The notes under the pieces: generated by a model
Seen by the model: only the letters and a program-made list of their open reading frames with translations
Told to the model about the DNA's origin: nothing
Database searches by the model: none
Position numbers and translations under genes: made by a program
Assembly (NCBI GenBank): GCA_001399805.1
Contig: LIHJ01000058.1
Location: forward strand, 1-34,453
Source: Candidatus Bathyarchaeota archaeon BA1
GTDB lineage: Archaea > Thermoproteota > Bathyarchaeia > Bathyarchaeales > Bathyarchaeaceae
Direction: 5' to 3'
DNA length: 34,453 nt
Shown: piece by piece, positions 8,184-22,004 of the stretch
Position numbering within the stretch: position 1 is the stretch's first letter
Layout of the letters: every line of letters begins with the position of its first letter

Positions 8184-8507
8184 ATGAGCTTTCCTTCCTT
8201 TTTTATCGCGGGATGGTTTACCAATCACGCAGGCTTCGCACTACTATCCGATGTTGTTCCTGCCACAGGTAGAGGCATAGCCATGGGTTTTGCTAACAAC
8301 TCTTTGCAGGCTGAGCTTGCGATGGGATCAACCTTAATGGGTTTTGTTAAAGGGATGCTCGGGTTTGAATGGATGTTCCAAACGTGTGCTTTAGTGATTG
8401 TCCCGGGCTCAACCTTAATTTTTATGTTAACCAAGAAAAAGGCACAGTGTGGTCAGAGGGGCAAGAACGTGGTTAGCGTTGGGATAGGGAGGTTAAACCA
8501 AGCATAA
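8184..8507 (+). pseudogene. C-terminal remnant of a major facilitator (MFS) transporter
   Basis: The open frame encodes FTNHAGFALLSDVVPATGRG followed by IAMGFANNSLQAELAMGSTL and two hydrophobic segments ending IFMLTKKK. This is the pattern of the last two or three spans of MFS permeases, with the R-G-x-A-M-G-x-x-N signature at the start of a span. There is no start codon with a ribosome binding site, and nine or so spans are missing. After about 8440 the frame runs on, without similarity, into the 3' end of ecfT on the other strand. It reads as a relic. Confidence 0.5.
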
Positions 8508-9247
8508 ATGGCAAAGATTAATATGATTATGGAGATGAGGGCCATAACATAATCAGCCCTCTTCGTTTTCAGCACATAGAGGTTGGTCCTCTTCTCGCTG
8601 GCCCCCCACGCTCGGGACTCCATGGCCTCAGCCATCTCTAGGCTTCTTCGGATGGCGCTCACAATGAGGGGGATGAGGATGGGGATGTAGTTTCTCACCC
8701 GTTTCATAAAGCTTCCGCGTTCCAGCTCCAGTCCCCTGGCCCTTTGGGCGTCCATGATGGTTTGGGCCTCCTCGGCTAAGACGGGAACGAATCGAACGGC
8801 TGTGGTGAAGGCGAAGCAGAACTCGTAGGGGACGCGGCTTTGCTCCAGCGCCAAGCCTAGATGGTCCGGCGAGGTGGTGAGGAAGAATATGGAGAATGAT
8901 TCCACCAACACTATGAAGCGTAGAGTCATGGCAAGGGAATATTCTATGAGGGGGATGGAGGGAAGTTGAGGATATTCCGTGTAAAAGTATGTGAAAACGA
9001 GGTTAAAAAGGAAAATGAAGACCGCAAACAGTGAAGCGCCCCTCATGGATCGGATCCATTCCCGTTGAACGCCAGCCATGAATACCAAGGGCGTTTGAAT
9101 GAGAAACAACAAAATGAGGGGCAACAACTTATTGAACATAACAGCAATCGTAAACATCACCAAAACGTAAAAGAATTTGACCCGTGGGTCCAGCTGATGA
9201 ATGGGGGATGAAACCCTTCTGAACCTTAAGCCGTCAAAGACGCTCAT
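8453..9247 (-). CDS. ecfT: ECF transporter transmembrane coupling protein EcfT
   Basis: The integral membrane scaffold that couples the two EcfA ATPases to a substrate-binding S component in energy-coupling-factor (vitamin or metal) transporters. About 264 residues with five or six spans. The two coupling-helix motifs are clear: AQRARG and ESRAWG, the family's paired Ala-Arg-Gly elements that plug into the ATPases. The ATG at 9247 overlaps the ecfA stop (ATGA), and this start is preferred over an ATG five codons upstream. It is the third gene of the ecfA-ecfA-ecfT operon. The substrate is unknown because no S component is adjacent. Confidence 0.92.
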   Translation of the reverse strand: MSVFDGLRFRRVSSPIHQLDPRVKFFYVLVMFTIAVMFNKLLPLILLFLIQTPLVFMAGVQREWIRSMRGASLFAVFIFLFNLVFTYFYTEYPQLPSIPLIEYSLAMTLRFIVLVESFSIFFLTTSPDHLGLALEQSRVPYEFCFAFTTAVRFVPVLAEEAQTIMDAQRARGLELERGSFMKRVRNYIPILIPLIVSAIRRSLEMAEAMESRAWGASEKRTNLYVLKTKRADYVMALISIIILIFAIYAWFNLPIPTLTTFLPL

Positions 9248-10065
9248 GGGGGCATCCTCCAAAAATCCATCAAAACCCTCCTCGCCTCATAAATGTCAAT
9301 CATGTCGGTTGGCAACCCCAAATCCGCCAACCCCAGAAAGATCTGGGCAATTTGTGGAGGGACAATGGAAGCCCGGACAACAAGGTCGCGGTTGGTGAGG
9401 ATTTGCTTGGCACCGCCGTCAGCCACAATCATTCCTTGAGCCATCAACACAACTCTGGGGTTACACTCCGCCACAAATTCAACGTCATGTGTCACTATGA
9501 TCACGGTCTTTCCCTGAGCCCTCAGCTGGACAATAAACTGTCGCAACTTATCCTTTTGTTGATAGTCTTGACCAATCGTTGGCTCGTCAAGGATGACCAC
9601 CTCGGGGTTCCAAGCAAGGACCGATGCCAAGGCAACCCGCTTCCTCTCCCCGCCACTCAACATGAATGGGGATGTATGGCGATACTGTGTTAAGCCCAAA
9701 AGATTGAGGGCCCATGTGACCCTCCTTTCGATGGCCTTCCCTTTAAGGCCAAAGTTCCTGAGGGCATAGGCAACCTCGTCCTCAACCGTTTCGCAGAAGA
9801 GCTGATGGTCAGGATTCTGAAACACAAATCCAACCTTTCTGGCGAGGTTGGCAACACTCACCTCCCGGGTGCTGACCCCATCAACCAGAACCTCCCCCCT
9901 TGACGGCTTCAATAACCCATTGAAGTGTTTCACCAGCGTTGTTTTCCCAGCCCCATTCTGACCCATAATGGCAACAAAATCCCCATCCTCAATCGTGAGA
10001 GAGACGCCCCTCAAGGCTTCAACACCATTAGGATAGGTGAAATGGACATCCTTAACTTCGATCAA
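9244..10065 (-). CDS. ecfA2: ECF transporter ATP-binding protein (second EcfA)
   Basis: One of two different ATPases of the ECF module. The 273 residues hold every ABC motif: Walker A GQNGAGKTT (about residues 35-43), Q-loop VFQNPDHQLF, signature LSGGERKRVA, Walker B VVILDEPT and switch His in VTHD. The Q-loop QNPDxQLF form is typical of EcfA. It overlaps the upstream ecfA by 14 bases and the downstream ecfT by four, so the three should be made in one operon. Numbering as A2 is by gene order only. Confidence 0.92.
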   Translation of the reverse strand: MIEVKDVHFTYPNGVEALRGVSLTIEDGDFVAIMGQNGAGKTTLVKHFNGLLKPSRGEVLVDGVSTREVSVANLARKVGFVFQNPDHQLFCETVEDEVAYALRNFGLKGKAIERRVTWALNLLGLTQYRHTSPFMLSGGERKRVALASVLAWNPEVVILDEPTIGQDYQQKDKLRQFIVQLRAQGKTVIIVTHDVEFVAECNPRVVLMAQGMIVADGGAKQILTNRDLVVRASIVPPQIAQIFLGLADLGLPTDMIDIYEARRVLMDFWRMPP

Positions 10066-10906
10066 GCCCCAAAACCTCCCGTAACAGTTGGGATGCCTCC
10101 TCCAAGGTTACGGGAACCTTGTTAAGGTGGACCCCGCTCTCTTTCAGAATTTGGTAAAGCCTCGTTGCCTTAGGGATACCCACACCGATCAAACGGGCCC
10201 TTTCTGAGTTAAAGACCCCTCGAGGTTCGCCATCTAACACAACCTTTCCTTCATCCATAACGATAACGTGATCGGAGTATTTTGAGGCCAAATCCAACCG
10301 ATGCTCCACAAGAATGACCGTGATGCCCAGCCTCTTATTCAGCTCATTAATCACCTCAAAGATTTTCTGGGCACCCACTGGGTCGAGGAAGGAGGTGGGC
10401 TCGTCGAGAACCATGACCTCTGGCTGCATGGCGAGCACGCATGCGATGGCAACCCGCTGTTGCTGACCGCCGGAAAGCTCGTGTGGTGCCCTTTCGCGAA
10501 GGCCCTCTATGCCAGTGATTTGGAGGGCCCAGTCAACCCGCTTTTGGATTTCTTCCCTAGGCATGCCAAGGTTTTCCAGCCCAAACGCCACATCCTTCTC
10601 CACCGACAATGCAAAAAGTTGATTTTCCGGATTCTGAAAAACCATCCCCACATGTCGGGCCAGCTCATAGATGGGGTGCTCATTCACCATAAGACCGGCA
10701 ACCATCAAATCGCCTTCCAATTTTCCGCCATAAAAGTGAGGAATCAGCCCGTTGAAGCATCGACATAAGGTGGTCTTGCCACAACCGCTGGGACCCGTGA
10801 GGACCACAAATTCCCCATCCTCGATGGTCATGGAAATATCTTCGATGGATGGCTTTGTCGCTCCTGGATATGTGTACGTTAGACCCCTTGTTTCAATGAC
10901 CGCCAA
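10052..10906 (-). CDS. ecfA1: ECF transporter ATP-binding protein (first EcfA)
   Basis: The first gene of the ECF operon. The 284 residues contain Walker A GPSGCGKTT, Q-loop VFQNPENQLF, signature LSGGQQQRVA, Walker B VMVLDEPTS and the switch His in VEHR. It ends with a C-terminal extension after GVGIPKATRLYQILKE, usual in archaeal EcfA. The best start is a TTG at 10906; no ATG in a suitable place precedes the conserved N-terminus, and the ribosome binding site is weak. Upstream lies a perfect 8-bp palindrome arm pair that may control the operon. Confidence 0.92.
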   Translation of the reverse strand: MAVIETRGLTYTYPGATKPSIEDISMTIEDGEFVVLTGPSGCGKTTLCRCFNGLIPHFYGGKLEGDLMVAGLMVNEHPIYELARHVGMVFQNPENQLFALSVEKDVAFGLENLGMPREEIQKRVDWALQITGIEGLRERAPHELSGGQQQRVAIACVLAMQPEVMVLDEPTSFLDPVGAQKIFEVINELNKRLGITVILVEHRLDLASKYSDHVIVMDEGKVVLDGEPRGVFNSERARLIGVGIPKATRLYQILKESGVHLNKVPVTLEEASQLLREVLGLDRS

Positions 10907-14076: not shown

Positions 14077-15120
14077 TTAAAGTCTAATGAAATCTGTTCC
14101 AACAGCTTCTGGCGAGCCGACGAGGATGCGGTGATGTTCCTCACCAGTTCGCTTATCCAACACCTTCTCCAGTTTCCCCTTTACAGTGATCTTTTCGCCC
14201 ACTTTGGCTAAATCGGCGTAGAGACCTTCATACGTGGTAACTTCACGGATGTCGATAACTTTACGTCCCGCCACTACAGTGACCTCATTCACGTTATAAG
14301 TGCATGGAAGAAACATGGCGTCAGTAGCATCCGAGACGGTAGCTTCTACTTCCACTATACCCTGAGGAATAAACACGCGATCTCCATACTTCTCTATAAT
14401 CTCTTCGTCGAGTTTTATGGGGTGAATGGAGAATTGCCTATCCTTATATAGGCCTCTATTCCATTTCCGCTCGTAGAACGTTTTTGCTTCTTCCACCGTT
14501 ATTGGATATAAAGTTGACTTGTTTTTACACCACGCTTCTAAGACCCTCTTACCGAAACGTGTGATGGCCGTTCCTCCTGTTTTGTAAAGGGAAAGCAGCG
14601 TCTCCTTTAATGCTTCACTGTTTTTAAGGCCGTGGATAGTGAGGTCGATGTCGGAGAATTCCGGCTTGTGAATGTCAATAAGCAATGATCCTGTCACCCC
14701 AAAGGAGTTGAGGGGTATGCCACTCTCCTCAGAGAGGAGGGAGACAAGTTCTACCACGTTCTGTTGGAGGGGGTCTAGCTTGGTAATCCCCAATAAACTG
14801 CTGAGTTTCTCCCTAGGGTGATAGCGTGTTTTAAGGTAGCTCAATGGAACAGCGGACATCTTAATGTTCAGTACGTAAGAGTCATACAAGTATTGGGGGT
14901 ATTCTTTCTGTAAAAACTGGAAGGTCTCTAGTAGCCATGGAATTGTGTAGTAGGATAATACCCTCTTAAAGCGTTTATTCCCATTCCCCCATTTCCCATG
15001 TGGACTTGGCACATATTTGAGATAGGAGAGGACTCTATCTGGGGGGTGAGCATAACCGACAACACAGAAAAAGAGGTCTTCTCTCGTTTGAACGTAGTCG
15101 TGGTCCTTGAAGCCCTTCAT
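14077..15120 (-). CDS. Nucleotidyltransferase-fold protein, COG1665-like (downstream paralogue)
   Basis: The 347-residue product has an alpha-helical N-terminal domain. A polymerase-beta type nucleotidyltransferase core follows, FGVTGSLLIDIHKPEFSDID (residues 140-159), with the GS motif and the two metal-binding Asp in SDID. The C-terminus is a small beta domain (VGEKITVKGKLEKVLDKRTG). It is about 30% alike by eye to the next gene upstream throughout, including HPPxxVxxxxxYVPxPxG near the start. It is the last gene of the operon with that paralogue and a CitG-type enzyme, with a 4-base gap. The substrate is unknown. Nucleotidyltransferases of this fold transfer nucleotidyl or phosphoribosyl groups to RNA, protein or small molecules. 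Confidence 0.8.
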   Translation of the reverse strand: MKGFKDHDYVQTREDLFFCVVGYAHPPDRVLSYLKYVPSPHGKWGNGNKRFKRVLSYYTIPWLLETFQFLQKEYPQYLYDSYVLNIKMSAVPLSYLKTRYHPREKLSSLLGITKLDPLQQNVVELVSLLSEESGIPLNSFGVTGSLLIDIHKPEFSDIDLTIHGLKNSEALKETLLSLYKTGGTAITRFGKRVLEAWCKNKSTLYPITVEEAKTFYERKWNRGLYKDRQFSIHPIKLDEEIIEKYGDRVFIPQGIVEVEATVSDATDAMFLPCTYNVNEVTVVAGRKVIDIREVTTYEGLYADLAKVGEKITVKGKLEKVLDKRTGEEHHRILVGSPEAVGTDFIRL

Positions 15121-15124
15121 CTTA

Positions 15125-16144
15125 TCAACCAGCTATCATGTAATCGGTCACTCTACCACCAAGCAACAATCGGTAGTATCTGGTTCCGTCCTTTTCACGT
15201 ACCTCCTCCAGCTTGCCCTGGGCTTTGATGCGTTCACCGATTTTGGCTTGTTCACAAAATCTGCCACGAAACGACGTAACTTCTTTAATGGGCGCGACCT
15301 TTCTACCTTCAATCACTTGAACCTTATCTATTTCATAGCGGCAGGGTGTGAAAATTGCCTCAGAGTCATCCACGACTATCGCTCTTATCTTAGTATAGCC
15401 TATGGACTTGTATAGGGTGTCTCCATAACGCTCCTTCACTTCACGCCAATCCTTCACGAATCGAATGAAGTAGTTTCTTCCTTTAAATTTGCCTTGCAAT
15501 GCCTTCCTTTTTTCAATCCTTAGGAAATCCTCCAAGGGCATAATTGTGTCTTTTGATCGAGCTTCATAGAGCTTTTTAAGTTCTTTATTGTTGTAGGGTT
15601 TCAATGAACCTTGCTTTTCAGCTAATAGCCTTCTTAACGTTTCATAAACCGATAAGCAATTTTTACTTCCGTAAACGATTGGATCGATGTCTGACGTTAG
15701 ATGATGCAGCCTCACAAGAACTGATCCTGAAATGCCTATCTTGTTCCAAGTTACACTCGACTGTTCGCTCAAAAGTTCGATTAGTTCAAGGGCCTGAATT
15801 TCCACTTCGTCTAAATCGGTTCTATCCTGGAGCTCTGTTAGCTTCCGTCGCGGATCATAGCGATGCTTGATTAGTTCGATTGGTACCTCATTGAGGTAAT
15901 CATCAAAAACTGGGTCAAAAATGAGGTACCGGGGATACTTCTGTTGAAGTAACCTGTAGCGTTCGACGAGGGAATAGAACTTCTGAAAGGTTTCACCGTT
16001 TCTTCTCCTGTCCCCTTTAGGGTCTGGTACATACCGTATGAACGCGACCACCTTCCCTGGCGGATGAACTAGTCCCTTAACGCCAAAAATGGCTTGGTCA
16101 ATGGTTTCGATGAAATCTCCCTCTCGAGGTTTAATGTGTCTCAT
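15125..16144 (-). CDS. Nucleotidyltransferase-fold protein, COG1665-like (upstream paralogue)
   Basis: A sister of the gene at 14077, with the same domain order: N-terminal GLVHPPGKVVAFIRYVPDPK, then the nucleotidyltransferase motif KIGISGSVLVRLHHLTSDID with GS and SDID, then a C-terminal beta domain (IGERIKAQGKLEEVREKDG). The two copies keep both metal Asp and so are probably both active. The ATG at 16144 is chosen because it lies just after the stop of the CitG-type gene at 16153. A longer ATG start at 16171 would overlap that gene by 19 bases. The tandem duplicate beside a CitG-like enzyme is the notable context. Confidence 0.8.
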   Translation of the reverse strand: MRHIKPREGDFIETIDQAIFGVKGLVHPPGKVVAFIRYVPDPKGDRRRNGETFQKFYSLVERYRLLQQKYPRYLIFDPVFDDYLNEVPIELIKHRYDPRRKLTELQDRTDLDEVEIQALELIELLSEQSSVTWNKIGISGSVLVRLHHLTSDIDPIVYGSKNCLSVYETLRRLLAEKQGSLKPYNNKELKKLYEARSKDTIMPLEDFLRIEKRKALQGKFKGRNYFIRFVKDWREVKERYGDTLYKSIGYTKIRAIVVDDSEAIFTPCRYEIDKVQVIEGRKVAPIKEVTSFRGRFCEQAKIGERIKAQGKLEEVREKDGTRYYRLLLGGRVTDYMIAG

Positions 16145-16152
16145 ATTAACCA

Positions 16153-17178
16153 CTAGAAACGTAGCCCGCATAATAGGGCGATCATCAATGAAGCCGCTGT
16201 CAAATCGGCTGTCGTGCCCGGGCTAAGTTCTTTGCCTTGCCTTCTCAATTCCTTATCAAATTCGAAGAGGGCCTCCCGGCCTTCGGGAGTGGTGAGACCG
16301 CCCAGCTGAAGAATCCTTTCAGCTCTAATTGAGATCTCCCTGGCTTTTTTCATGCCGATCTCCACGGCTTTAGAAATCTCTGACGTGTATTTTAAGCCAA
16401 CGTTCCTAGCCACGAAGGTGTCGGGGAACAAGGATAGCAACTTAAGATAGGTATGTACGGTTGTGATGTTGATGTCGCGGGTCTGGACATAAGTGTTTTG
16501 GAGGGTTGGATAGCCCGTGTTGAGGGTTATCTGTAAAGCGGTGGTCAGCTCCCTAGCTATGGTGTCCCACGCAGCTGAAACCCTCATGACGTCATGAAGT
16601 GTCAAACCCCTTTCGACGAGCTCCCGCTTTGCTCCCTCGCTCGTTAAGTCGGGCGCTTTTCCGCCTTTAACCTTACCAAGCCCTCCAGGATTTGCCAGAA
16701 CAATGGCGTCGTATACCTCAACGGCATCCTCACACCCTGTTGACCCCATGACTCTCACGAAACTTTCACGCAAACTCGTTACATCTATACTCTTAAGACT
16801 TGCGAGGGTCATTCCGGCGGCTACCGCTATTGGCATGAAGAGAAGGATCACGCCTAGATGGGTGTTTTCACCTTTGTGCCATGTCCTCATATCTAGGACG
16901 GCGCGTTTTATGAGTCCTCCAATACCTATCTCCCCCATTTTGACCTCGCCAACTTCAGCTGCCATGCCCCTAAGTGCGCTGTCTCTGATAGTTGGGCCCA
17001 GTGATATCGAACCAGCTATGAAATGTTCAAACCTTGTATCTGGAAAATCAGTGGTTCTGTGGACATTTCCAGGCTTAGGCCATCCACAGACCTCCAGAGC
17101 TGCTGCCAACTGCCCAGCCCTCATAACGTCATCGGCTATTTCAACCCGATGTTTTTGAGGCAAGATTACCAAGACCAT
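16153..17178 (-). CDS. Triphosphoribosyl-dephospho-CoA synthase family protein (CitG/MdcB-like)
   Basis: The family condenses ATP with dephospho-CoA to build the prosthetic-group precursor of citrate lyase and malonate decarboxylase. The 341 residues show its hallmarks: WPKPGNVHRTTDFPDTRFEH (near residue 33), ENTHLGVILLFMPIA (about 104) and a final SPGTTADLTAASLMIALL. In archaea homologues (COG1767) occur without citrate lyase or malonate decarboxylase, so the real substrate may differ. It is the first gene of an operon with two nucleotidyltransferase-fold proteins. The bacterial transferase that follows CitG/MdcB in the pathway (MdcG) also has that fold, so a joint role is suggested. No acyl-carrier or lyase subunit is in the window. 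Confidence 0.85.
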   Translation of the reverse strand: MVLVILPQKHRVEIADDVMRAGQLAAALEVCGWPKPGNVHRTTDFPDTRFEHFIAGSISLGPTIRDSALRGMAAEVGEVKMGEIGIGGLIKRAVLDMRTWHKGENTHLGVILLFMPIAVAAGMTLASLKSIDVTSLRESFVRVMGSTGCEDAVEVYDAIVLANPGGLGKVKGGKAPDLTSEGAKRELVERGLTLHDVMRVSAAWDTIARELTTALQITLNTGYPTLQNTYVQTRDINITTVHTYLKLLSLFPDTFVARNVGLKYTSEISKAVEIGMKKAREISIRAERILQLGGLTTPEGREALFEFDKELRRQGKELSPGTTADLTAASLMIALLCGLRF

Positions 17179-17360: not shown

Positions 17361-18164
17361 CTATGTTGTTAACCGCGGCATTAAATTCGCTGCGCGTAGT
17401 GCTAAGATCAGAGCCACGCCAACCACGATGGCGATAGCGGACATCACAACCCTTTCAACAATAGAGATAGGCAAGACGTACATGAAGAGAGCCGAGATGC
17501 TAGGAAGGCCTAAAGCCTTCAGCCATGACTCGGCGACCTTAACTGGAATGAACCAGCCAACGCCGCTGATAAATATCAGATTTCCTAACATATGGTCCGC
17601 CACTAAGCCACAATAACTTGACAAAGCAACCGTGGCTGTGAGCTTCCACTTAATATTACTTACGAAAAACTCGGCTAGTCTGTCTCTTAAGGTCAATATT
17701 GTTAATAAACCTGCTAAATGCAATATTGGATAGAATGGTGCGCCTTGGCCAACCCATGTCAGATACCATCCCACCACTAACATGATTAAAACAAATGCAG
17801 CGACCAACCAACCCTTACTACGATATCTATCCAAGCCACAACTCTTCTGGGTAAGTGCCCCAGCTACCAAAGCCGAAACTGCCGGACAAAACGATGTCAT
17901 GACACTAAAAATTGGCCATCCTTTATATCCCGCTACCACAATGCCACCTATGAAAGCCGCGAGGGCACCTAAATATGGGCCAATCACTAAGCCGTAAACT
18001 GGTGCAAGAACCGCATCCAGCGTAATTTTGGCTCCAGCCAATCCTATAATTGGAATTCCAGGCAGGGTCATAATTATGACCACCGAAAGCGCCGCAAAAA
18101 CCGACACAAATGCAACTTGGCGCGGACTAAGCCATACCTTACTCTTTTCTCTCTTTTCTTTCAT
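17361..18164 (-). CDS. ECF transporter S component, substrate unknown
   Basis: A 267-residue membrane protein with about six or seven spans. The start, SPRQVAFVSVFAALSVVIIM, and LAGAKITLDAVLAPVYGLVI plus GPYLGALAAFIGGIV are typical of ECF substrate-binding (S) subunits: the A-x-x-x-A motif on helix 1 that contacts EcfT, then the D-x-x-x-x-P-x-x-x-G-x-x-x-G-P loop. It is longer than most vitamin S components. It should dock onto the EcfA-EcfA-EcfT module coded 6.5 kb away. It starts with a GGTGA site and is divergent from a winged-helix regulator. Confidence 0.75.
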   Translation of the reverse strand: MKEKREKSKVWLSPRQVAFVSVFAALSVVIIMTLPGIPIIGLAGAKITLDAVLAPVYGLVIGPYLGALAAFIGGIVVAGYKGWPIFSVMTSFCPAVSALVAGALTQKSCGLDRYRSKGWLVAAFVLIMLVVGWYLTWVGQGAPFYPILHLAGLLTILTLRDRLAEFFVSNIKWKLTATVALSSYCGLVADHMLGNLIFISGVGWFIPVKVAESWLKALGLPSISALFMYVLPISIVERVVMSAIAIVVGVALILALRAANLMPRLTT

Positions 18165-18255: not shown

Positions 18256-18392
18256 TTATAATCTTACAATAACCCTTATGAAGAGAGAAGAAAAGTCTAG
18301 AAAGCACCTGAACGCGTTCAGAAAAGGCCTAAACATGTCCCCATGTGAAGCTATAAATTTTGGTGAAGCGTTATACGAGGAAGGTGCTAGGC

Positions 18393-18896
18393 ATGGAGTT
18401 TTGGCCTTACATCTTGCCTCTACCAAGGGATCGGGCGGATCAGCGAAGATTCCTCATTTCAATCTTTGGATCAGATACGGCTCTGGATATCCTTAGAAAT
18501 GTATCCCTCCAGAGTAGGGTCTACCAAAAAGACTTAATTAAGGGACTTAAGTACTCTAACAAGACCATCATACAAAACCTAAAGACGCTTGTTTCCTTAG
18601 GTGTTTTGCAGGAGGGAATGGAGAAGGTTTTAGAGAGGGGGAGAGTGTTTTGGTTGAAGTGGTACCTCCCCACGAGCATAGGAAAGTGGATTGTCCTTCT
18701 TCTGCTTCCGCCTGAAAAGGTGGATGCTAAGCTCGTTGAGGAAACCTTAAGGGAGCTTTTTGAGCTCTACGTTAAAAACGCCATCGAGTTATGCAAAACC
18801 TATGACTTGAGCCTGGAAATCTTGAAATCGGTATTTGAAGAGTCTTTCCCTTCGCTACAACAACCGTTTCCGTCTGCAACTTGCATGGAGACTTAA
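18393..18896 (+). CDS. Winged-helix (ArsR-like) transcription regulator
   Basis: A 168-residue protein: FWPYILPLPRDRADQRRFLI, then FGSDTALDILRNVSLQSRVY and QKDLIKGLKYSNKTIIQNLK, which is the recognition helix-turn-helix. The wing follows (LVSLGVLQEGMEKVLERGRV), then a helical C-terminal domain. The layout is that of archaeal ArsR-like repressors. The ATG at 18393 has AGGAAGGTG seven bases upstream. The frame is open back to a TTG at 18360, but that start has no binding site. It is divergent from the ECF S component, so it probably controls that gene. A second short frame (18278-18496, MKREEKSRKHLNAFRKGLN) overlaps it out of frame and may be a spurious or upstream reading. Confidence 0.75.
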   Translation: MEFWPYILPLPRDRADQRRFLISIFGSDTALDILRNVSLQSRVYQKDLIKGLKYSNKTIIQNLKTLVSLGVLQEGMEKVLERGRVFWLKWYLPTSIGKWIVLLLLPPEKVDAKLVEETLRELFELYVKNAIELCKTYDLSLEILKSVFEESFPSLQQPFPSATCMET

Positions 18897-21335: not shown

Positions 21336-22004
21336 TTAAAGCCCGTCCATATCTATTACGTATTCAAAGCCAGCCTCTATTAAGCCCTTCGCTTCCTCTA
21401 AAGTCGTTGCCGTCCTGCACATGAACTCATCGTTGCTCTCAAAGTTGACTAGGTGCGTGTAGATGAGGGTTGAGTTGATGCTCCTGTGGCCTAAGACCTC
21501 CTTGACGTGGAGGATGTCCTTCGTTTTGTGATACTCCATCGTCGCCTTCCAGTGGCGTAGGGTGTGGAACGTTATCATTTTGAGCCTCGGGTTTTGAAGC
21601 TTCGCTGCTAGGAGTCTCCTCTGCCTCTCGAAGTTCCCTCTATGAGCCTTCTCTGTCGTGTTACCGAAGACTAGTTCGGACGTTTTAGGCAGGGCGTTGA
21701 GCATAGCCATCAGCCCGCTTGAAACCTTGAACTGCCTGGGCTTTCCGTGCTTCTCAGACCTACACCTTATGGTATTTCGCTCCCCATCCACGTCCGTCCA
21801 CCTTAGCAGTCGCACCTCTCCTATCCGCATGCCAGTTTCCTTGATCACTTGAAGCGACGCAGCCACCTTCCTCCCGCATCCGGCGATCAGGGCGTCAACT
21901 TCCTTCTCTCCCTCACCCAAGACAACATCTAGATCACCATCACTACCAAAAATCAAATCCCAATACGCGCAGATAAGAAAACAGCTTGAAAACACAACCT
22001 CCAA
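21336..22004 (-). pseudogene. Tyrosine recombinase (integrase), N-terminally truncated
   Basis: The catalytic domain is present in order: Arg in KETGMRIGEVRLLRWTD, the His-x-x-Arg box TFHTLRHWKA, the later His in VLGHRSINST, and the catalytic Tyr in YTHL. It ends in the archaeal integrase tail (TTLEEAKGLIEAGFEYVI). The similarity begins only near DALIAGCGRK (about 21905). The leading codons back to 22004 are read from a repeated non-coding sequence, so the core-binding domain is gone. As read it cannot make a whole integrase, though the catalytic half might be expressed. It probably dates the formation of the island in the superoperon. Confidence 0.7.

Follow-up and report, generated by a model that had tools for sequence, protein, structure and literature searches.

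A CitG-family gene of Candidatus Bathyarchaeota archaeon BA1, together with two adjoining nucleotidyltransferase-type genes (NT2 and NT1), is likely to belong to the late biosynthesis of tetrahydromethanopterin (H4MPT), with products that would build the tail of the coenzyme. The genes lie on contig LIHJ01000058.1, within a stretch of 34,453 nucleotides that was analysed as a whole and is called the window here. Methanogenesis and a large part of bacterial methylotrophy use H4MPT as their C1 carrier, and we know of no genes assigned to its alpha-ribosyl and hydroxyglutaryl-phosphate tail. We propose the role because of gene order, co-occurrence with H4MPT genes, a bacterial counterpart linked to mch, and conserved motifs. 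Membership in the H4MPT pathway is well supported; the substrates and the order of the steps would follow by analogy with the CitG and MdcB systems.

Results

Three genes head to tail

Three open reading frames (ORFs, called mechanically) run head to tail on the minus strand: the CitG-like gene (16153..17178; 341 aa), NT2 (15125..16171; 348 aa) and NT1 (14077..15120; 347 aa). The listed start of NT2 overlaps the CitG-like gene by 19 bases, an overlap reduced to 8 bases by an ATG nine codons further in, and 4 bases separate the end of NT2 from the start of NT1. A preliminary description of this DNA had placed a CitG-type gene and two diverged nucleotidyltransferase-fold genes at exactly these positions, and NT1 and NT2 are indeed 34% identical over 334 columns (E 3e-68). 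It had seen neither citrate lyase nor malonate decarboxylase in the vicinity, and the part of the window's ORFs that was scanned holds no gene for either, nor any other H4MPT gene.

Neighbouring genes in archaea

In what company are these genes found elsewhere? We compared 81 loci, namely the window and 80 of 94 encoding stretches, which were found by NT similarity and are hence weighted to Bathyarchaeia and Asgards. Many of the contigs end close to the genes, and each cluster of neighbours takes its name from one or a few representatives. Of the 81 loci, 40 contain at least one member of the set FTR, MCH, MptA, DHPS-like, RFAP synthase, MptE, MptD and MfnB; if each of the eight were single-copy and genomes measured 1.5 to 2 Mb, 5 to 6 such loci would be expected. 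The CitG-like and NT genes have an H4MPT-gene neighbourhood. FTR is the most frequent (21 loci), followed by the S component of an energy-coupling factor (ECF) transporter (16), CofE (12), DHPS-like, DUF447 and DUF1464 (8 each), MCH, RFAP synthase and MptA (6 each), MfnB (5), and MptD and MptE (3 each). One locus (L142) carries RFAP synthase and DUF447 genes on one strand and MptE-like, DHPS-like, MptA, MptD, NT2 and NT1 on the other, while a second (L141) has DUF447, CitG, NT2 and NT1, with MptA, MptE and MptD diverging. The preliminary description had started from bacterial systems in which the acceptor is a carrier protein; in place of that frame, the neighbourhoods point to H4MPT biosynthesis as the context.

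NT1 and NT2 occur together in 38 of the 81 loci, at most 300 bases apart in 36 of the 38. CitG is encoded in 20 loci and lies within 2.5 kb of an NT gene in 17 of them, in several arrangements; by listed positions it does so in 20 of 51 Thermoproteota genomes. Because NT1 and NT2 are so close in those 36 loci and CitG is near an NT gene in those 20 genomes, the trio is kept together beyond chance, and the expectation that the three genes would be neighbours in related genomes has held.

DUF447 genes adjoin CitG or lie close to it in many archaea, on a haloarchaeal plasmid and in one bacterial H4MPT island (L002, L007, L008, L099, L119-L121, L127, L141-L146), and are candidates for a part in making H4MPT. 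DUF1464 adjoins NT-CitG in Sulfolobales-like genomes (L135-L137) and is also found in MptA operons of Helarchaeota and Jordarchaeum (L031, L032, L073). Ignisphaera-type genomes (L039, L041) have CitG, NT1 and a Thi4-family gene in a row.

Co-occurrence across genomes

The genes also share genomes with one another and with H4MPT genes. Among 121 Thermoproteota genomes, NT was found in 58, CitG in 55, MptA in 35 and MCH in 28. CitG and NT occur together in 52 of the 121 (p 1.4e-23, in tests that here and below treat genomes as independent). NT is encoded by 25 of the 28 genomes with MCH (p 3e-7) and CitG by 21 of them; CitG is likewise encoded by 29 of the 35 with MptA (p 1e-7). Going by the listed positions, no more than 15 kb separates CitG from MptA in 9 of 29 genomes and from MCH in 5 of 21. 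Asgards have NT in 40 of 59 genomes.

A further 80 archaeal genomes (G351-G430) are a contiguous part of roughly 155 non-Asgard genomes, and would by the way these were drawn come from other phyla. CitG was found in 30 and MCH in 27. The association is close: CitG occurs in 25 of the 27 MCH genomes and in 5 of the 53 others (p 1e-13), and NT in 18 of the 27 and 2 of the 53 (p 2e-9), where NT was scored on at most 5 candidates per genome throughout the roughly 155. A wider profile (A5), applied to 28 chosen genomes that include all 9 MCH-positive, NT-negative members of the set, turned one of them (G358) NT-positive and raised the count to 19 of 27.

Bacterial counterparts

Is there a bacterial relative in a comparable setting? 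With the window's CitG-like protein as query, tblastn against 72,556 plasmid records returned 36 matches, one from a haloarchaeon and 35 from bacteria. An MCH query of the same records also gave one haloarchaeon and 35 bacteria, and the bacterial records with mch and with the CitG-like gene are the same 35. In 33 of these the listed places of the two genes are at most 2.3 kb apart; the other two records hold two places of each gene. The gene order of the bacterial islands is mch, a RimK-like gene, the CitG-like gene and fae, and in one variant genes for dihydroneopterin aldolase, DUF6513 and DUF447 replace fae. The E. coli CitG query, by comparison, matched 133 plasmid records, of which the 60 listed are annotated citG, citX, mdcB or plain triphosphoribosyl-dephospho-CoA synthase.

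According to PMC3615186, a methanotroph has the order mch-orf5-orf7-fae, and PMC8141765 identifies Orf5 as the methylofuran glutamate ligase MyfB, a relative of MptN. As the island order matches this one, with Orf5 as MyfB, Orf7 should be the CitG-like protein. The orf7 of PMC7391723 was considered and set aside, as it is part of the pqq/xox region.

A search limited to NT1 as query and to plasmid sequences gave no match, at E up to 1, to any of the 35 plasmids that carry mch. In PMC8141765, the dephospho-H4MPT of M. extorquens is described as having neither the phosphate nor the alpha-hydroxyglutaric acid. That these bacteria keep the CitG-like gene and have no NT1 relative on those plasmids therefore matches their coenzyme, in which the phosphate-hydroxyglutarate end is missing.

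The CitG-like protein

The protein belongs to the CitG superfamily (PF01874, E 2.2e-68, 231.4 bits, cut-off 27), and one solved structure, 3h9p, is related to it by sequence (E 9.5e-17). Could it then simply be CitG or MdcB? The equivalog profiles (TIGR03125, TIGR03132) returned 48.7 bits against the 282.35 required for MdcB and 39.4 against the 272.3 required for CitG. In a tree of 54 proteins, eight CitG/MdcB rows and a long-branched archaeal protein (L116) split with a support of 100/99 from the other 45, which are archaeal and bacterial H4MPT-type proteins and include that of the window. Since the scores are far under the cut-offs and the tree sets it in a separate clade, the window protein is, as judged from its sequence, no CitG/MdcB equivalog.

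Eleven residues (K35, P36, G37, G87, N105, G109, D253, A286, G321, A324 and D325) are common to 20 proteins of the CitG, MdcB and H4MPT types. K35 to G37 are encoded at 17068..17076 and the PGTTAD segment, residues 320-325, at 16204..16221, both on the minus strand. Residues held in common with CitG and MdcB fit an ATP chemistry that would have been retained with the acceptor changed. One genome (G381) has two CitG-family copies, L115 and L116, of which L116 is the long-branched protein that falls beside CitG/MdcB.

NT1 and NT2

Both NT proteins carry the motifs G-x-x-GS and SD-x-D, which are invariant across the four NT subfamilies that we distinguish. On the minus strand, the catalytic motif of NT2 (G146 to D163; GISGS ... 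SDID) is encoded at 15683..15736 and that of NT1 (G141 to D159; GVTGS ... SDID) at 14644..14700. A Pfam scan at E up to 1 matched NT1 only to PF01909 (E 0.098, under the cut-off) and CW_7, gave nothing for NT2, and found no MdcG or CitX family in either. The PF01909-type cut-off of 21 bits is passed by two relatives, a methanogen-type NT (35 bits) and an NT2 relative (22.6 bits). With the motifs, this places NT1 and NT2 by sequence in the nucleotidyltransferase superfamily (PF01909-type).

The two proteins have predicted structures of high confidence (pLDDT 92.2 for NT1, 93.1 for NT2), each with a C-terminal OB-fold-like domain. Fold searches matched the NT1 model chiefly to OB-folds, with nucleotidyltransferases low in the list; for the NT2 model, Foldseek listed SSB and, at E about 0.01, poly(A) polymerases, and nothing reached E 0.001. 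MdcG was not among the listed fold matches of either model, and aligned with NT by hhalign over the GS/DxD stretch at a weak 8.1% probability. No solved structure related to NT by sequence was found, a profile search yielding only marginal VP3 matches.

The subfamilies differ at defined positions: NT1 and NT2 have W/R at column 44, R/K at 53 and H/R at 233, and differ also at column 197. Column 231, which we infer to be the third carboxylate of nucleotidyltransferases, is acidic in the methanogen-type NT (D) and NT4 (E); NT1 has S there, NT2 mostly F or Y, and NT3 V. We considered whether NT1 or NT2 could be a dead scaffold and rejected this, since GS and DxD are invariant in both, though the acidic residue of column 231 is missing. 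A phage origin of NT1 was also rejected, with no match in 50,697 phage records.

Among the 120 matches listed for NT1, those with organism names are mostly Bathyarchaeia, with one Geothermarchaeales, a range that fits the bathyarchaeal source of the window. Among the 120 of 1583 NT relatives that were listed, the names include the methanogens Methanocaldococcus, Methanococcus, Methanothermococcus, Methanothermobacter and Methanobacterium. A second pair, NT3 and NT4, occurs in Bathyarchaeia and Jordarchaeia (L016, L018, L020, L023, L024, L036, L059, L075, L080), in some loci beside an asparagine-synthase-like or KTI12-like kinase gene. Distant NT1 relatives (about 25% identity, best E 6e-11) are present in 23 plasmid records, such as a Streptomyces plasmid (L101:6010-7026); the Streptomyces-plasmid relatives adjoin a phosphotransferase gene, and further ones are found in Croceicoccus and Aurantiacibacter.

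Discussion

A proposed two-step route to the H4MPT tail

In H4MPT, a ribofuranose is alpha(1-5)-linked to deoxyribitol, and its 5-phosphate is in diester linkage with (S)-2-hydroxyglutarate. CitG draws its triphosphoribose from ATP, losing adenine and forming an alpha linkage, and CitX or MdcG then converts the triphosphate to a diester on a serine. The tail of H4MPT thus has the same junction as the CitG/CitX product with another acceptor, and we therefore propose a two-step logic like that of CitG and MdcG. Hydroxyglutaric acid is named as a methanopterin component in PMC5695019.

In the first step, the CitG-like enzyme would promote attack on C1' of ATP by the 5-hydroxyl of the pterin-aminophenyl-deoxyribitol precursor. 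Adenine would leave, and the product would be an alpha-linked ribose that bears a 5-triphosphate; inversion at the beta-nucleoside would account for the alpha linkage of H4MPT. In the second, NT would move the phosphoribosyl-pterin unit from the triphosphate onto the hydroxyl of (S)-2-hydroxyglutarate, with release of pyrophosphate and formation of the H4MPT phosphodiester. Overall this would be CitG plus CitX/MdcG chemistry in which a small-molecule acceptor replaces the carrier protein. NT1 and NT2 may carry out this second step together in a heterodimer, or each may have its own acceptor, and these lineages could also have a different tail. The analogy with CitG/MdcB and MdcG drawn in the preliminary description survives in its two-step logic, still the best mechanism we can offer; the identification with a CitG/MdcB equivalog does not, given the scores and the clade.

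Several observations speak against an H4MPT role. NT and CitG lie apart in those methanogen-type genomes that were examined, and the order DUF1464-NT-CitG occurs in three genomes (L135-L137) that have neither MCH nor MptA. The exceptions to co-occurrence run in both directions. Genes are missing from MCH genomes: in the 80-genome set NT from 8 of 27, even by the wider profile, and CitG from 2 of 27, and in Thermoproteota CitG from 7 of 28 and NT from 3 of 28. Conversely, MCH and MptA are both missing from 11 of the 55 Thermoproteota genomes with CitG and from 11 of the 58 with NT, and in G356, G377, G396 and G415 CitG is present while neither MCH nor NT was found. CitG matches among 14 control genomes extend to E. 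coli, to S. acidocaldarius, which gave no MCH or MptA match, and to Haloferax volcanii, which we take to be a folate user. The tests ignore kinship among genomes. Finally, NT1, NT2 and NT3 have no acidic residue at column 231, so that their catalysis may be unusual.

How do other explanations fare? The trio might make triphosphoribosyl-dephospho-CoA and attach it to one or two carrier proteins, as the CitG family with its common invariant residues, an NTase-type partner as in MdcG, and the weak GS/DxD alignment with MdcG would suggest. We consider this very improbable and rejected it on profile scores, phylogeny and gene context: the cut-offs for CitG and MdcB are far from reached, the clade is separate, the window ORFs scanned hold no citrate lyase or malonate decarboxylase gene, and the genes keep company with H4MPT genes, their bacterial counterparts lying within H4MPT islands. 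Service to methanofuran or coenzyme F420, other coenzymes of the same pathways, strikes us as scarcely credible. MfnB in 5 and CofE in 12 of the 81 loci point that way, as do the bacterial islands, which also hold MfnB and other methanofuran-type genes; but to our knowledge neither coenzyme has an alpha-ribosyl unit, an operon of pterin genes ends in NT2-NT1, and bacteria that make methylofuran show no NT1 relative on the mch plasmids.

A different division of labour within the H4MPT tail itself is easier to imagine, and we still regard it as unlikely. Here the CitG-like enzyme would add ribose, and NT would activate 2-hydroxyglutarate or the ribosyl phosphate with an NTP as in F420 synthesis, NT1 and NT2 taking different steps. 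Their divergence, with other conserved residues at columns 44, 53, 197 and 233, and their retention side by side in 36 of 38 loci would agree with this. Against it, 18 of the 20 NT-positive genomes of the 80-genome set, outside Thermoproteota and Asgards, have a single NT match, meaning that these do without a second NT, and the triphosphate from the CitG-like enzyme would already be activated. We thus favour the two-step route through a triphosphate, with NT forming the diester.

An S component and possible salvage

An ECF transporter S component (17361..18164, minus strand; PF07155, 33.6 bits, cut-off 26.7) ends 182 bases before the start of the CitG-like gene on the same strand, and with CitG-like, NT2 and NT1 probably forms one operon, a larger unit than first noted. 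In 14 of the 80 loci other than the window an S component is found no more than 1.2 kb from NT or CitG; these loci are from Bathyarchaeia, Baldrarchaeota, Borrarchaeota, and bins labelled Odinarchaeota and Aenigmatarchaeota. The window protein resembles FolT-type S components in its PF07155 match; it differs in missing the FolT cut-off (a weak 21.2 of 60 bits) and in sitting with coenzyme tail genes. We propose that it imports a pterin or an H4MPT precursor. A possible source of energy is the ECF module at 8453-10906, also on the minus strand, with an ATPase (10052..10906; TIGR04520, E 1.6e-83), a second ATPase (9244..10065; TIGR04521, E 1.8e-78) and a CbiQ-like T component (8453..9262; TIGR02454, E 2.2e-19), all three below the curated cut-offs.

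Do genomes with such an S component make the pterin themselves? The comparison took in 31 selected genomes out of the 80 with fetched loci. Of the 15 S-component loci besides the window it used 13, leaving out L011 and L048 (where the S component is at a distance of 2.5 kb), and it added 18 others for breadth. MptA was not found in 11 of the 13, compared with 4 of the 18 (p 0.001), and no DHPS-like match over the cut-off was found in any of the 13, compared with 6 of the 18 lacking one (p 0.0001), in genomes of unstated completeness, four of the 13 being titled chromosomes (L021, L027, L034, L058). Below the cut-off, weak partial DHPS-like matches occur in 3 of the 13, and in 2 of the 6 comparison genomes the match is in two pieces; counting every match at E 0.001 gives p 0.004. 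Because S-component genomes mostly have neither MptA nor DHPS-like, we tentatively raise the idea, about which we have more doubt than conviction, that S component, CitG-like, NT2 and NT1 form a system of methanopterin salvage and finishing, in which an unfinished H4MPT core released by neighbours would be imported and given its tail, precursors being exchanged among archaea as vitamins are. Kinship among these genomes weakens the test.

A gene at 18360-18896 (plus strand), divergent from the S component, encodes a small helix-turn-helix (HTH)-like protein, a candidate regulator. Some of its relatives stand alone at 157-179 aa, and others share a protein of 470-480 aa with a PfkB kinase domain; the cluster occurs in 12 loci close to these same genes. 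A tyrosine-recombinase gene of the phage integrase family (21336-22004, minus strand) adjoins a prefoldin subunit gene amid housekeeping genes. Searches of the window for tRNAs and against Rfam gave no match.

Comparison with known systems

In a literature search, no paper came up that connects methanopterin with CitG or triphosphoribosyl chemistry, subscription papers, including the 2005 methylotroph gene papers, being largely beyond its reach. The chemistry is already known and the pathway new, and an earlier proposal may exist. Should the H4MPT role prove true, two uncharacterised archaeal families would gain testable reactions, the name 'triphosphoribosyl-dephospho-CoA synthase' would be a misnomer for the archaeal and methylotroph members of this clade, and a single phosphoribosyl-transfer trick would serve both the prosthetic groups of enzymes and a C1 coenzyme.

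The system resembles CitG with CitX and MdcB with MdcG in combining a PF01874 protein with the common invariant residues and an NTase-type partner with GS and DxD; it differs in the separate clade of its CitG-like protein and in having no lyase or decarboxylase gene among the window ORFs scanned. Compared with MdcG and CitX, the NT proteins, of about 347 aa, have an OB-fold-like C-terminus and no MdcG/CitX Pfam match, and their proposed acceptor is a small acid. The methanogen NT of Methanococci and Methanobacteriaceae, annotated as a nucleotidyltransferase or DNA polymerase beta domain protein, is of the same family and has the same motif; unlike the window's NTs it is mostly single copy, is not beside CitG in the genomes examined, and keeps the acidic residue at column 231. 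The nearest bacterial relatives of the window's CitG-like protein are those of the H4MPT islands (orf7), which stand beside mch; those plasmids show no NT1 relative, and the bacterial product is made without phosphate and hydroxyglutarate.

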